From Verrucomicrobiota bacterium (GTDB lineage: Bacteria > Verrucomicrobiota > Verrucomicrobiia > Limisphaerales > J093), in the NCBI GenBank assembly GCA_022710935.1, contig JAKLFY010000059.1, forward strand, positions 1-40,020: DNA of 40,020 bases. The letters are read 5' to 3'. Each line of letters opens with the position of its first letter. Positions within the stretch are counted from its first letter, which is position 1. Positions 39 through 17,978 of this stretch are shown here, one piece after another. Both the position numbers and the translations under genes were made by a program. The notes under the pieces were generated by a model. The model made no database searches. It was not told the origin of the DNA and saw only the letters and a list, made by a program, of their open reading frames with translations.

Positions 39-683
39 CATCACGGCCTGAAGGATAAAGACCTCGTCGGCATCCCCTGGCGCGTAGCCTTCGCGCTGCA
101 AGATGACGGCTGGTATCTGCGCTCGGACATCATCTGGGCGAAGCCGAACCCCATGCCGGAATCGGTTACCGACCGCCCGACAAAATCGCACGAATACGTA
201 TTTCTGCTCGCGAAATCCGAGCGGTACTTTTTCGACGCCGACGCCGTGCGGGAACCGCTCGCGCCCGAGAGCACTGCGAGATATGCGTACGCGTTTGGTG
301 GTGCCAAGAGCACAGCATTGGTTGAACAAAATCGGCGCGGTATTGGGCAGCGTACGCGACCGGTTGGTGAGCGTGTCGCGACCGCCGGCCGAAATGTTCG
401 CACCGTCTGGACGATTGCCACCGAGCCGTATCCGGAAGCGCACTTCGCCACGTTCCCGACGGCGCTGCCGGAGCGGTGCATCCGCGCCGGATCGCGGATC
501 GGCGACACCGTGCTCGACCCGTTCGCAGGATCTGGCACCACGCTGATGGTGGCGCGGGGCCTTGGGCGCAACGCGGTCGGCATTGAGCTTAACCCGGAAT
601 ACTGCCGGCTGATCGAGAAGCGATGCGCTCTGCCGTGGGAGAAAACCAGTCATGACGACGAACAACAGATACCGCTGTTCTGA
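1..683 (+). CDS. DNA methyltransferase, beta class (N4-cytosine/N6-adenine), 5' end missing
   Basis: The reading frame is open to the first base of the window, so the start lies outside; the first internal ATG is at 24. The C-terminal part carries the SAM-binding motif I (VLDPFAGSGTT, near residue 164 counted from that ATG) after the target-recognition region. This order (catalytic motif first, motif I last) is that of the N6_N4_Mtase family. The segment KDLVGIPWRVAFAL followed by SDIIWAKPNPMPES is typical of phage and restriction-modification enzymes of this family. The catalytic DPPY/SPPY motif should lie upstream and is not present here. It would methylate phage DNA, probably to evade host restriction. 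It ends 12 bases before the helicase GTG at 696. No cognate restriction enzyme is seen. Because the circular join bypasses this stretch, the gene may belong to a variant genome rather than the main one. Confidence 0.85.
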   Translation, partial: NAGSRYEMSQRLHHGLKDKDLVGIPWRVAFALQDDGWYLRSDIIWAKPNPMPESVTDRPTKSHEYVFLLAKSERYFFDADAVREPLAPESTARYAYAFGGAKSTALVEQNRRGIGQRTRPVGERVATAGRNVRTVWTIATEPYPEAHFATFPTALPERCIRAGSRIGDTVLDPFAGSGTTLMVARGLGRNAVGIELNPEYCRLIEKRCALPWEKTSHDDEQQIPLF

Positions 684-3883: not shown

Positions 3884-5229
3884 CGCAGTCTCTCAATCGC
3901 CCACCAGGAAGCCCGACGGTGGTGGGAACTCCCCTGCGCGTAAGCATTCTCACTCATGTTGTTCCACTCGCGGGCATAGAGGATGATCTCGTCGCCGCCT
4001 TGGAAGATATCGACATACTCGAAATGCACCCCGCAGTCATCCGCGCCCTCTTCCAAACGTGAGTCGGATCTGGATGCATCGACTGCCTCTCCGTTGATGT
4101 ATAGGCGGACGCCAACTTGGAATTCAGCGATTACGGCATCGCTCCTGAACATCACCATGCCAGTGATCTTGTAGCGCCCGTCCGCAGGGATGATGATGCT
4201 CTCGATCCCGCCACCGCCATAGTAGAAGAATCCGGCATCATCGTAGAGCGCGTCCGCCGCCCACACGATGGCCTCCTCTGTGTTGTGCGTCAGCTCCTGA
4301 TCGGCCGACAGCCACGTCCGCGCAGCCAACCCGGCCACGTTCCTTGACGACGTGGTCAACCCCCACGCCAGTCCGTCGTACACCACCTCGTAGGAGCCGC
4401 CGGCAACGATCTCCCCACCCTTCAGCGGCTGCCCCTCGTACAGCACCGACTGCGGGCCGATCTCGTTCACGTCAAGGATGGTGCCACCCGTGTTGGTGTA
4501 CGCCGCGGTGAAGCGCAGCGACTGACCGGGTGTGATCTGCACGATCTCCTCGTCGGTGGTCAGCTCGAGGCTGTTCGCCGTGCCGCCCACCGTGACGGGA
4601 GGCGTCGCGATGTAGAAGGTGTCGAGCAGAAACTGCCGCCAGCGGCGGGCGATCTCGGCAGGGAAGTGCGTCGCCCAATCCTGGTAGTAGGTGATGTACT
4701 GCTTTGAGGTGTCGGAGATCGGCCCGATCGCCTCGCCCATGACCAGCGGGGCCACCACCGCAGGGTTGTACCCCGTCACCACCACCTGACCGAGTGACGC
4801 CCAGACCGGCGTCTTCGCCACCACCGCGTCGAAGCCCGTGACGGTCACTACCCCCTGGGTGGCCTTCACCACCGTCGAGATCGTGTTCACCGCGTCGAAG
4901 CCCGTGACGGTGACCTGGCCGAGCGTCGCCGGCACGATGACGCCCACGATGTGCGGACTGACGTCGTACCCTGTGACGGTGACCATCCCAGTGTTGCACA
5001 GGACGTCGATCCTCGCCTGGTGGATCTCCGCCGGGTAGGCGGTGACAGCCACCATGCCGAGCGTCGCGGCGATCACCGGCGCGATGATGCTCGCTGCGAA
5101 GCCCGTAACGGTGACCGCTCCGCTCCCGGCGCTGACTAGCGTCCGCTTCCAGTCCTTCATGGCGAAGGCCGGGGTGACGGCCGTGACCGTCACCGTGCCG
5201 AGCATGGCGTTGACAGTCGTCGTCGGCAT
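3880..5229 (-). CDS. Tail fibre / receptor-binding protein with 22-residue repeats and C1q-like head
   Basis: 449 residues. The N-terminal third is seven repeats of about 22 residues, each with a TVTVTGF-like strand (residues about 7-165). A middle module (about 230-295) resembles that of the neighbouring fibre at 5723-6727. The C-terminal 150 residues form a beta-rich domain like a C1q/TNF jelly roll, ending in SWWAIERLR; the neighbour ends in SSWLAIERIK. The two genes therefore share C-terminal modules and are probably paralogous host-binding fibres. This one lacks the virion-attaching N-terminus seen in the other and may hook on through its repeats. Confidence 0.65.
   Translation of the reverse strand: MPTTTVNAMLGTVTVTAVTPAFAMKDWKRTLVSAGSGAVTVTGFAASIIAPVIAATLGMVAVTAYPAEIHQARIDVLCNTGMVTVTGYDVSPHIVGVIVPATLGQVTVTGFDAVNTISTVVKATQGVVTVTGFDAVVAKTPVWASLGQVVVTGYNPAVVAPLVMGEAIGPISDTSKQYITYYQDWATHFPAEIARRWRQFLLDTFYIATPPVTVGGTANSLELTTDEEIVQITPGQSLRFTAAYTNTGGTILDVNEIGPQSVLYEGQPLKGGEIVAGGSYEVVYDGLAWGLTTSSRNVAGLAARTWLSADQELTHNTEEAIVWAADALYDDAGFFYYGGGGIESIIIPADGRYKITGMVMFRSDAVIAEFQVGVRLYINGEAVDASRSDSRLEEGADDCGVHFEYVDIFQGGDEIILYAREWNNMSENAYAQGSSHHRRASWWAIERLR
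4735..5211 (-). repeat. Seven degenerate tandem units encoding TVTVTGF-type repeats
   Basis: Consecutive units start with LGTVTVTAV, SGAVTVTGF, LGMVAVTAY, TGMVTVTGY, LGQVTVTGF, QGVVTVTGF and LGQVVVTGY, spaced 21-27 codons. Two DNA stretches (around 4826 and 4892) share a nearly identical core, GCGTCGAAGCCCGTGACGGT, which suggests recent duplication. Confidence 0.75.
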
Positions 5230-5238
5230 CGAAGGCCC

Positions 5239-5712
5239 CTACACTGCGACCTTGAAGATGCCGTTCGCGTTCCAGCTCACGACCACATCGCCGTCGTTGT
5301 TGTTCACCGGCCCCGCCAGGTCCACGAACGCCAGCGCCGGGTCAGCAGGTGAAGTGATGGTGTCGTCGTACAGGATCGCCCAGTAGGCGCCCGTGAAACC
5401 GCTGGTGCCGCCGCTCGCCTGGCTCCAAGTCACGTCGCTGGCGTCGAACACGGCGTCGCCATCGGCCTCGTTGAAGCTCTGGCTCGCAAGCGTCGCGCCT
5501 CCGGCAACGTACCCGCTGCCGGTCACCTCGTTGGCGCTGAAGTCGCCCCACGCCGGGGTGGCGAGCGCGGCAGTCGGGGTGATCGTGCTGTCGATGATCC
5601 CGAGCTTGAACGTGTCCCCGCCGGTGTCGAAGTCCATCGCCTTCTGGGAAGTCAGCGTCCCGCCCAAGTACTTCGCCAGTTCTTCGAAGAGCACGAGATC
5701 ACCACGAGCCAT
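5239..5712 (-). CDS. Small structural protein between fibre genes
   Basis: 157 residues, start ATG at 5712 with an AGGAGG site; the ORF could extend further upstream but has no good ribosome site there. The N-terminus (ELAKYLGGTLTSQKAMDFD) is helical; the rest is beta-rich and acidic (FDTGGDTFKLGIIDSTITPT, then SGYVAGGATL). This pattern is common in small virion proteins of tailed phages. It lies between two fibre genes, so it is probably part of the virion. No confident family name. Confidence 0.6.
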   Translation of the reverse strand: MARGDLVLFEELAKYLGGTLTSQKAMDFDTGGDTFKLGIIDSTITPTAALATPAWGDFSANEVTGSGYVAGGATLASQSFNEADGDAVFDASDVTWSQASGGTSGFTGAYWAILYDDTITSPADPALAFVDLAGPVNNNDGDVVVSWNANGIFKVAV

Positions 5713-5722
5713 AGCACACCTC

Positions 5723-6727
5723 CTATTTGATGCGCTCGATCGCAAGCCAAGATGAATCGGACTCTGTCCCGTTGCCGTAGACATAGCGGGGACTGCCATA
5801 GACGTTGCTGTGTGTCACGACGATCGTCACGAGGTCATTTTGCGTGAGTTTCCCCTCCCAGACGAGGTTGACGTTCGGCTTGACGTAATATGGGCTCCCG
5901 GCGAAATGCGAGGTGACCAACGAAAACGGAGCCGCCACATACCATCGTGTGGCGTTGACGGCCATTGCAGCCTGCGCGAAACCCTCCCCAAGGTCAGTTC
6001 CAGCCGTCGCCCAGTATATGAACGCCGTGACGCGATACCTCCCGGTCACCGGGATGGTCAGAGCTGTGCTCGACGGAGAGGCATAGTTGGAATCATCGTA
6101 GAGTTCCGTGTTGAAGACAACCGGAGTGGGTGTGTCCGTCGCGATCTCCTGCGCCGAACTCATGCACACTTTCGCCCCACCGTACGATGCCCCACTCCCA
6201 CCCCCGGCCCCGATCAGGTGGAACTGCGTGCCGTCGTAGATCACGGTGTAGACGCGGTTGATGACGATCTCACCCCCAGCGCAGGCCGCACCGTTGTAGT
6301 AGACCGCCTTCGCCCCGAGGCTGTTCACGTTCAGAGTGGTCGCCCCACTGTTGCTACGGTTCGCCTTGAAGCTGAACGTCTGCCCGCCAGTGTACGCGGA
6401 GGGGGCCATCACGAGCGTCAGGGTGTAGGCGTTCAGGGAGCCGCCCGTGATGCCCGTCACGGGCCAGATCAACGACCCATTCTGCACCTGACCGGCCGTG
6501 GCGTACTGATCGTAAGCAGTGGCCGTCGCCACGCCAGTGTGCTTCCGGCTGCCCATCGGCAGGTTGGCGGTCGGCGTGTTCGTGCCGTCCTTCGTCAGGC
6601 AGGCGTTGATCCCCGACTCGAAGTTGTCATCCTCCTCGTCGAAGCGCGACGCCACGATGTCGTACCCACCAGCCTCGTCCTCCGTCCAGTCGTGGACGCG
6701 AGTGAAAATGCCGCCTGACCATCCCAT
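5723..6727 (-). CDS. Tail fibre protein with virion-attaching N-terminus and C1q-like C-terminus
   Basis: 334 residues. The N-terminal sequence, MGWSGGIFTRVHDWTEDE followed by SRFDEEDDNFESGINACL, is a familiar podovirus tail-fibre start. A beta-rich module (about 95-175, GGQTFSFKANRSNSGATTL through VYTVIYDGTQFHLIG) follows. The C-terminal 140 residues are C1q-like and end in SSWLAIERIK. A GGAGG site precedes the ATG. It likely binds the host receptor and shares its C-terminal modules with the gene at 3880-5229. Confidence 0.75.
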   Translation of the reverse strand: MGWSGGIFTRVHDWTEDEAGGYDIVASRFDEEDDNFESGINACLTKDGTNTPTANLPMGSRKHTGVATATAYDQYATAGQVQNGSLIWPVTGITGGSLNAYTLTLVMAPSAYTGGQTFSFKANRSNSGATTLNVNSLGAKAVYYNGAACAGGEIVINRVYTVIYDGTQFHLIGAGGGSGASYGGAKVCMSSAQEIATDTPTPVVFNTELYDDSNYASPSSTALTIPVTGRYRVTAFIYWATAGTDLGEGFAQAAMAVNATRWYVAAPFSLVTSHFAGSPYYVKPNVNLVWEGKLTQNDLVTIVVTHSNVYGSPRYVYGNGTESDSSWLAIERIK

Positions 6728-16123: not shown

Positions 16124-16906
16124 TCACGCCTTCCACAGGATGCCCTGGAGGCTGGCGTTGGACATGGTCAGGTTGCCGGCGAACACGATCGGCACCACGA
16201 AGGCGTCCTGGTTCACAGCCCCGCGCCGCTCCAGCGGGACGAAGTTGCGGTCGGAGTGCGGACGGAAGTAGATGTAGTCCGTGTTCAGGAAGTACATCGA
16301 GTTGTCGTAGTGACCGCTGTCACCGTCGTAGATCACGCTCGCAGTGTTGTACGCGAGCGTCGAGAACCCGGCCTTCGCGTCGGTGTCGCTCGTGATCCGC
16401 TGGATCGCCTGGAGGCAGCCCCAGAAGACGGCGAACGCGCCGTCATCCGCCGTGATGAGGTCCGGCCTGTCGTTGCCTCGGCTGCACATCAGCCAGAGCT
16501 GGTTCATCTTCGGGAGCAGCGTCGAGGTCGACATCGTGCCGTCCTGGAGGGTCTGGTTCTGCCAGAACGTCCACACCGAACGGTCGATGCCGCCCACCGT
16601 GCCGCTGGTCGGGACCTTGGCGACCTGGGCCTGCAAGCCGGTGATCTGCTTGCTGCTCGTCCCGGTGCCGTCCGAGTAGATGCCGGTCGAGATGTTGTTC
16701 GCCATCGTCTTCATGGCGATCGAGATCCGCTTCTCCAGCAGGTTGATCACCGCCTCCTTGCCGGAGTTCTGCACGTCCACCTCGAGGCCGCTCGCCGTGA
16801 CCACCACCGCCGCCTGCTTCCAGGGGTACTCGGCGGCGGACATCACGTCGCTCGGGGAGATGTCCAGGGTCTCGTAGCCGGAGTAGTACTTGAAGGTTGC
16901 GTTCTC
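16124..16906 (-). CDS. Major capsid protein, exon 2 (residues 60-319)
   Basis: This is the C-terminal 260 residues of the major capsid protein, beginning ENATFKYYSGYETLDISPSD, the normal continuation of the N-terminal piece at 17802-17978. The fold is that of a phage capsid family common in podoviruses, with SAAEYPWKQAAVVVTASGLE and KEAVINLLEKRISIAMKTM. The reading frame stays open upstream through the intron as far as an ATG at 17776, but the sequence there does not resemble capsid. Removing the 895-nt group I intron joins EELEYA directly to ENATF in frame. The whole protein would be 319 residues, normal for the family, so the gene is interrupted, not broken. Confidence 0.85.
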   Translation of the reverse strand, partial: ENATFKYYSGYETLDISPSDVMSAAEYPWKQAAVVVTASGLEVDVQNSGKEAVINLLEKRISIAMKTMANNISTGIYSDGTGTSSKQITGLQAQVAKVPTSGTVGGIDRSVWTFWQNQTLQDGTMSTSTLLPKMNQLWLMCSRGNDRPDLITADDGAFAVFWGCLQAIQRITSDTDAKAGFSTLAYNTASVIYDGDSGHYDNSMYFLNTDYIYFRPHSDRNFVPLERRGAVNQDAFVVPIVFAGNLTMSNASLQGILWKA

Positions 16907-17801
16907 CGAAGTTGTTACAAACAAAGGACTTACGTCCATTGTCGGGTGGGTCTTTTCAGCCCACCTCTCCCCTTTCAGGTCTGCGTTATGGGGGAGTCCA
17001 GACTGTCGCATACGCTTGATTGCGTCCGTCACACTCAGTCGTTCACGCCGGTATGCCGCAGCAGTGACCTTGCGCCCTGTCGCCCACGCCTGGGCTTCCA
17101 AGTCGATCAGTGACGGTTTCAGTACGCCAAAGTTTGAGAACTGTAGTACAATGGAATCAAGGAGGTCTCCATGAGAAACCCGCCGCAGACTGCATCCTGC
17201 CTCGCCTGTGGTAAGAAGTTCACCTTCTACGCATCCACAACCAGCGGAAGATATTGCTCTCCAGCCTGCTACCAGGCTGACCGTTGGGGCAAGAGCCACA
17301 AGGTCACTGCCGTCTGCTCGATCTGTGGCAAATCCAGAGAGTATTACCAGTCGGAGGTTGACATCGGATGCGGAGTCACCTGTGGGAGCATCGAGTGCCG
17401 AAGCGCCACACTCCGTGATCAGGCGATATACACCTGCCAGTGGTGCGGGAGCAACTTCCAGTTTGCAGCGTCCAGACCAAGGCAGTTCTGCTCTCGTGCT
17501 TGCTACACAGAGGCGAGAAAGATCCGTGACGGATCGCATGGAAACAAGTCCGGTGCTTGGAGGGCATGGCAGCGCGATGAGTGGTTGGAAGACTCCTGCT
17601 GCCGCTGCGGAAGCACCGAGAACCTCGAGCTTGATCACATCATTCCTGTAGCCTGTAACGGCATGAGCGTCAGAAGCAATGCCCAGACACTGTGCCGCAA
17701 GTGCCACACTCGCAAGCGCGTTACGGAGGACCGTAAGATGCTTGCGAAGATTGGGAAGAAGGATCATTGATTCCATCTCAGTGTTCTCTAGCTTATGAAC
17801 T
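16907..17801 (-). ncRNA. Group I intron interrupting the major capsid gene
   Basis: It is 895 nt, read on the minus strand. The 5' exon ends in U (17802) and the intron ends in G (16907), as group I splicing requires. P1: exon AGUACGCU (17802-17809) pairs with guide GGCGUACU (17121-17128), with a U-G pair at the splice site. P3: 17110-17116 with 17026-17032. P4: 17099-17104 with 17066-17072 (one bulge). P5: 17082-17086 with 17091-17095. P7: GACUG (17036-17040) with CAGUC (17001-17005). P8: 17012-17015 with 17022-17025. J8/7 is AUGCGA. P9 hairpins: 16967-16972 with 16991-16996; 16945-16950 with 16960-16965; and GGAC-GUAA-GUCC (16926-16937). P10: GAGAAC of exon 2 with GUUCUC (17136-17141). The order of helices is canonical. 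P6 is not clear. The endonuclease gene lies in the P1 loop, antisense to the intron. Confidence 0.85.
17171..17770 (+). CDS. HNH homing endonuclease with three zinc-finger-like units, antisense in intron
   Basis: 199 residues on the plus strand, opposite to the capsid gene. Three cysteine units come first: C10-x2-C13 with C29-x3-C33; C49-x2-C52 with C67/C71 and C76; C89-x2-C92 with C107-x3-C111. An HNH domain follows: C143/C144-x-C146, ELDHIIP (His156 catalytic), Asn170, C175-x2-C178-H179. It would nick or cut intronless capsid genes near the insertion site to promote homing. A GGAGGT site lies just before the ATG, and TACAAT at 17147-17152 is a possible -10 box without a clear -35, so expression may be separate from the capsid message. 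The stop lies 31 bases from the 5' splice site. Confidence 0.9.
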   Translation: MRNPPQTASCLACGKKFTFYASTTSGRYCSPACYQADRWGKSHKVTAVCSICGKSREYYQSEVDIGCGVTCGSIECRSATLRDQAIYTCQWCGSNFQFAASRPRQFCSRACYTEARKIRDGSHGNKSGAWRAWQRDEWLEDSCCRCGSTENLELDHIIPVACNGMSVRSNAQTLCRKCHTRKRVTEDRKMLAKIGKKDH

Positions 17802-17978
17802 AGCGTACTCCAACTCTTCCACGATCGCCCGGCCTCCGGGGACGGCCCGGATCTTCCCCTTTGAGCGCAGGCGGGAGAGCAGCGCGTTGCTGTTGGACAC
17901 GTTGTCCGCGAGTTCCTTGTTCCGGTGCAGCAGAGTCGTTGTGACGATCTCTGTGTACGTCGTGTTCGGGGATGCCAT
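17802..17978 (-). CDS. Major capsid protein, exon 1 (residues 1-59)
   Basis: It encodes the typical capsid N-terminus: MASPNTTYTEIVTTTLLHRN, then KELADNVSNSNALLSRL and IVEELEYA. A GAGGTG site precedes the ATG at 17978, 10 bases after the scaffold stop. Without splicing the frame would add Ser-Ser and stop at 17793, giving a useless 61-residue fragment. With splicing residue 59 (Ala) is followed by Glu60 of exon 2. Confidence 0.85.

Follow-up and report, generated by a model that had tools for sequence, protein, structure and literature searches.

The major head protein gene (PHROG 9953) of the phage in the window, by which we mean the whole 40,020-nucleotide stretch of DNA analysed here, lies on the minus strand and is split in two by an 895-nt insert at 16907-17801. 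This insert is very probably a mobile group I intron, predicted to splice and to home, which carries in the loop of its P1 helix an HNH endonuclease gene antisense to the capsid gene. An initial annotation of the window had already assigned it to group I; as judged from sequence, good support for this comes from an independently built covariance model, from covariation, from a U.G pair in the splice-site helix and a terminal omega-G, and from homologues with an empty site.

The interrupted capsid gene

Exon 1 (17802-17978, minus strand) encodes residues 1-59 and ends in ...AGTACGCT, while exon 2 (16124-16906, minus strand) encodes residues 60-319 and the stop codon and matches PHROG 9953. Joined in frame, the two exons give a protein of 319 amino acids. 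The closest homologue with an empty site, L001 (89% amino acid identity), aligns with residues 1-319 gap-free, and its DNA follows that of the window base by base with the 895-nt insert as the sole absence, which bears out the division of the capsid into residues 1-59 and 60-319 made in the initial annotation. Empty alleles occur in 80 relatives among viral contigs, which have the same capsid and lack the insert. The initial annotation had also proposed a comparison with uninterrupted homologues as a check on the join; in these the position of the insert reads ELEYAEN, and across the close group of intron-free homologues the motif E-x-E-Y-x-E/Q-N spans the join. Protein data alone permit the border to slide by one base, and the rule that the exon ends in U and the intron in G fixes its position, with the intron (16907-17801, minus strand) ending in ...ACUUCG, the last base being the omega-G. 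The G+C content of the insert (0.554) is lower than that of the exons (0.62-0.64). A search of the assembly for a second capsid copy found none, and the capsid exons are without decay.

Structure and covariation of the ribozyme core

The ribozyme core, P3 to P8, was delimited by covariation and covariance models at 16999-17118, and all its elements lie on the minus strand. In P3, CCGUCAC (17110-17116) pairs with GUGACGG (17026-17032) and seven of seven pairs covary. The covariation alignments place P4 at 17099-17102 with 17076-17079 and P5 at 17092-17095 with 17082-17085 (together 17076-17102), and P6, with an additional P6a, at 17072-17075 with 17045-17048 (17045-17075). They also place P7, in which GACUG (17036-17040) pairs with CAGUC (17001-17005) and a G-C pair stands where most relatives have A-U, a compensatory change; all four pairs of the P8 hairpin ACGC...GCGU (17012-17025) covary. 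The P9 domain (16907-16998), with P9 itself (CUCCCC/GGGGAG), two more hairpins and GUAACA near the 3' splice site, comes from a single-sequence fold, and its layout is similar in relatives as judged by eye.

Paired cells amount to 97.9% in an alignment of 29 sequences and 98.5% in one of 39, which support P3, P4, P5, P6, P7 and P8. In the smaller alignment the retrieval motif itself fixes much of P4-P6; the larger one adds copies found by the model and is the better test, and in it P5 and P6 also covary, two-sided changes occur in 18 of the 30 pairs and none of 500 shuffles reaches the observed covariation score (none did so with the 29-sequence alignment either). In slid controls the pairing collapses. 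Moreover, covariance model R2, from whose building the window was left out, recovers the window at 99.8 bits (E = 2.7e-21).

A match to the Rfam group I model RF00028 on the minus strand, which the initial annotation had named as a check, did not appear: at neither gathering nor permissive thresholds did a search of the window against Rfam return a group I match. Two members of the intron family, L239 and L216, match RF00028 below threshold, so that the miss in the window reflects divergence of the subfamily, and the gathering cut-off is a criterion of detection and not of structure. Further, L239 aligns with RF00028 end to end (39.2 bits, E = 7e-7, against a gathering score of 50), and this full-length alignment ties the intron family to known group I introns.

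The splice-site helix and the antisense endonuclease gene

An unbiased search of the 900 nt upstream of P3, taking in all exon-guide candidates that end in U.G, ranked highest an 8-bp helix between the exon sequence AGUACGCU (17802-17809, minus strand), whose last U forms the U.G pair, and the internal guide sequence GGCGUACU (17121-17128, minus strand). The U of this top candidate is the last exon base by protein comparison, so that the U.G pair falls exactly at the exon border, in agreement with the earlier claim of an in-frame join between a 5' exon with U as its last base and an intron with G as its last base. P1 is thus present as claimed, but its position differs, since its 3' strand lies 673 nt from the 5' splice site, past an HNH gene that is absent from the initial annotation. 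With 673 nt the P1 loop is far longer than in relatives whose P1 is clear, most of which have loops of about 8-21 nt. Of the other helices that had been traced, P3, P4, P5, P7 and P8 hold by covariation, whereas a P10 contiguous with P1 would have three weak pairs at most. The hexamer GUUCUC, 7 nt upstream of the guide, is fully complementary to GAGAAC, the hexamer with which exon 2 opens. GAGAAC occurs twice on the minus strand, at 17783-17788 near the 5' end of the intron and at 16901-16906 at the start of exon 2, and both copies can pair with GUUCUC at 17136-17141, so that the loop stem could not coexist with a displaced P10.

The HNH gene (17171-17770, plus strand, 199 amino acids) fills two thirds of the insert. 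Its product has an intact HNH domain (D-H, N, H) and CxxC zinc ribbons with their zinc ligands, and matches PF01844 (35.5 bits against a cut-off of 21.4; 1.1e-8), PF14279 (2.7e-7) and PHROG 1271 (8e-20). A Shine-Dalgarno-like AAGGAGG (17159-17165, plus strand), read from the sequence, stands 5 nt before the ATG. The endonuclease loop is closed on the minus strand by a 10-bp inverted repeat, with its 5' arm AUGGAAUCAA at 17767-17776 and its 3' arm UUGAUUCCAU at 17151-17160, and by a 6-bp stem of GAGAAC (17783-17788) with GUUCUC (17136-17141). The phage encodes its replication genes (helicase, primase) on the plus strand and its structural genes on the minus strand, and the HNH gene therefore shares the strand of the former. 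No sigma-70-like plus-strand promoter was found near the HNH gene, and the sigma-70 consensus may not fit the host of this phage. A strict peptide search of viral and genome collections returned no close relatives of the HNH protein, so that its distribution gives no demonstration of homing at this site.

Alternative explanations

Three other readings of the insert were weighed against a mobile intron. Out-of-frame homing insertions such as the ShiLan element, proposed to be translated through without RNA splicing (PMC11855218), look alike, and the frame of exon 2 is indeed open through nearly the whole insert (16124-17776, minus strand). However, this open frame has no protein-family match before exon 2 and is a coding shadow cast by the HNH gene on the opposite strand, 895 nt is not a multiple of three, the unspliced exon-1 frame meets a TAA at 17793-17795 after 61 residues, and the RNA core covaries. 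Translation through the insert, or an intein, is extremely improbable, both being rejected on the frame.

It could also be argued that a free-standing HNH gene broke the capsid gene and that, with no splicing, the phage is defective, given that the intact antisense gene accounts for most of the insert and exon 1 runs to a stop at 17793. We regard this as very improbable, as what is left of the insert forms a group I core that covaries and has its P1 correctly placed at the exon border, many relatives have the core but no endonuclease gene in it, and the capsid exons are undecayed. A slightly greater, though still small, likelihood attaches to a degenerate, poorly splicing intron that leaves the capsid partly expressed, whether as a regulatory or a decaying state: P10 is weak and sequence gives no measure of splicing efficiency, but the core helices are all intact and the score of the window lies within the range of its intron family.

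A family of introns in phage capsid genes

A DNA search matched the stretch 683-808 of the insert to other phages at 69-75% identity, including Caudoviricetes sp. MW202674 (L082), where the match lies between two coat-protein fragments, and Roseobacter phage CRP-118 (L083), where it lies between two fragments of ribonucleotide reductase. A first motif derived from the matched stretch retrieved 75 viral contigs, and the same 75 loci when relaxed, and a second, different motif retrieved at least 120. More than 190 other phage loci share the core of P3, P4-P6, P7 and P8, which shows strong compensatory covariation. The 196 sampled loci include 155 (79%) in major-capsid genes, which belong to several PHROG families, as assigned by tblastn from classified representatives and with the L089-seeded group placed among the capsid loci for its resemblance to members of PHROG 1357; the other 41 comprise 14 ribonucleotide reductase, 5 portal, 1 terminase and 1 tape-measure loci and 20 that are unassigned or weakly assigned. 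Counted as distinct cores, 145 of 185 are in capsid genes, and 42 loci hold two or three cores. The initial annotation had suggested that the capsid location is exceptional; it is the usual home of this family and has precedents in phages Tuc2009 and LittleE (PMC3706429).

Searches of plasmids for the core, and of bacterial and archaeal genome contigs for the exact core motif, gave no match, and among 97 genomes at and around that of the window the core was found in the window alone. The family consensus matches just 4 of 50,697 deposited phage records, against the at least 120 environmental viral contigs of the motif scan, and Rfam misses most family members tested. Three loci (L097, L101 and L153) have three family cores each, in or adjoining one capsid-type gene. 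In L157, near a scaffold-protein gene, a tRNA-Thr (CGT) gene (157-227, minus strand) lies within the P6 loop of a family core (95-287).

Orientation of the endonuclease genes

Endonuclease genes that lie demonstrably between two capsid exons enclosing a family core are antisense at 16 loci and sense at 3, with L177 having both. Among the 16 antisense genes, those of the window and L094 encode HNH proteins and the others LAGLIDADG proteins by motif, and one pair alone exceeds 60% identity. The four reductase-intron loci with endonucleases (L081, L111, L151 and L182), in which the downstream exon is unconfirmed, all carry them in sense; the difference from the capsid introns (Fisher's exact p = 0.004, a value that ignores relatedness and locus sampling) is a lead and not proof. 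The L081 sequence (1-2125) is an anaerobic ribonucleotide reductase gene that holds both a family intron and what appears to be an intein, and its sense HNH gene follows the core. L267 (1484-2563) and L277 (1318-2403) depart from the antisense trend: between their capsid exons lie LAGLIDADG frames in sense orientation, which extend into the ribozyme core.

By sequence comparison, L094 is the nearest parallel to the element of the window: a homologous capsid gene of the same family has its intron a few codons downstream, and the P1 loop of that intron likewise holds an HNH gene in antisense, whose product is 34% identical to that of the window over 188 amino acids. In the L094 intron (5106-6110, reverse-complement coordinates) a C.A pair apparently replaces U.G at the 5' splice site (exon ...CACGAC, guide AUCGUG), since no other cut both leaves an intron that ends in G and yields a protein of the homologous length.

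Taken together, there is perhaps an even chance that these loci represent a phage subfamily, mostly below Rfam detection, that has become a specialist of major-capsid genes across several PHROG families, at some loci in two or three copies. In such very highly expressed genes its homing genes would repeatedly have come to lie antisense (in three loops and from two nuclease families), maybe through convergent selection for a ribozyme free of translation and for homing that is independent of late expression.

Comparison with known systems

Introns in phage capsid genes were known before. Pope et al. (2013; PMC3706429) used RT-PCR and N-terminal sequencing to prove in vivo splicing of the intron in the major capsid gene 13 of mycobacteriophage LittleE (JF937101), and the same paper cites an intron in a capsid subunit gene of lactococcal phage Tuc2009. 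LittleE resembles the window in that a group I intron interrupts its major capsid gene, with an exon ending in U, an intron ending in G and an endonuclease gene (gene 14) on the opposite strand, and is thus already a case of a capsid intron with an antisense endonuclease; it differs in the capsid gene and site and in its endonuclease, described as LAGLIDADG-related (PMC3706429). The stretch with the LittleE intron scores weakly, at 18-19 bits, with family models R1 and R2 and 30.7 bits with RF00028, and a search of the whole record with R1 gave no match.

CRP-118 and MW202674 have unannotated inserts with the same core family as the window, and differ from it in the genes that they occupy (ribonucleotide reductase in CRP-118, a P22-type coat gene in MW202674) and in having introns without an endonuclease. 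Antisense endonuclease genes within group I introns are established for nuclear rDNA (PMC9548176). Introns such as Dsq.L2066 (PMC9548176) are self-splicing group I introns that, like the one predicted here, bear a homing gene in antisense and lie at a locus transcribed at very high levels; unlike that of the window, they are eukaryotic group IE introns with a His-Cys gene in P9.2 instead of the P1 loop, for which separate transcription by pol II is proposed. Group I introns by the thousand have been found in Jug phages with subtype models (PMC12363816). No description of a capsid-directed intron family or of a general antisense trend in phages was found in the open-access literature, outside which most subscription papers lie, and what looks new here is an intron family invisible to Rfam with biases towards capsid genes and antisense cargo.

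Proposed mechanism and implications

From these features we infer a cycle in which the late minus-strand capsid transcript would fold its intron into the ribozyme core, with guanosine bound at P7. A first cut after U17802, in the U.G pair of P1, and a second after omega-G16907 would allow the exons to be ligated and the 319-residue major head protein to be restored. The 10-bp and 6-bp stems closing the P1 loop would hold the cargo outside the core. The HNH protein, made from plus-strand RNA with its own ribosome-binding site, would cut intron-less capsid genes at ELEYA/EN, and the intron would then be copied by homing. The antisense placement probably excludes the ribosomes of the capsid mRNA from the ribozyme, and probably uncouples expression of the endonuclease from the very high late expression of the capsid.

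These findings suggest that annotation greatly underestimates how often phage virion genes are spliced, given the few deposited records set against the many environmental contigs and the failure of Rfam to detect most members tested. Automatic annotation would label such intron-split capsid genes as truncated. Finally, the antisense placement opens to test the old question of how an intron-borne endonuclease can be expressed without disturbing the folding of the ribozyme, and it has a eukaryotic parallel in the introns of nuclear rDNA, another very highly transcribed gene.
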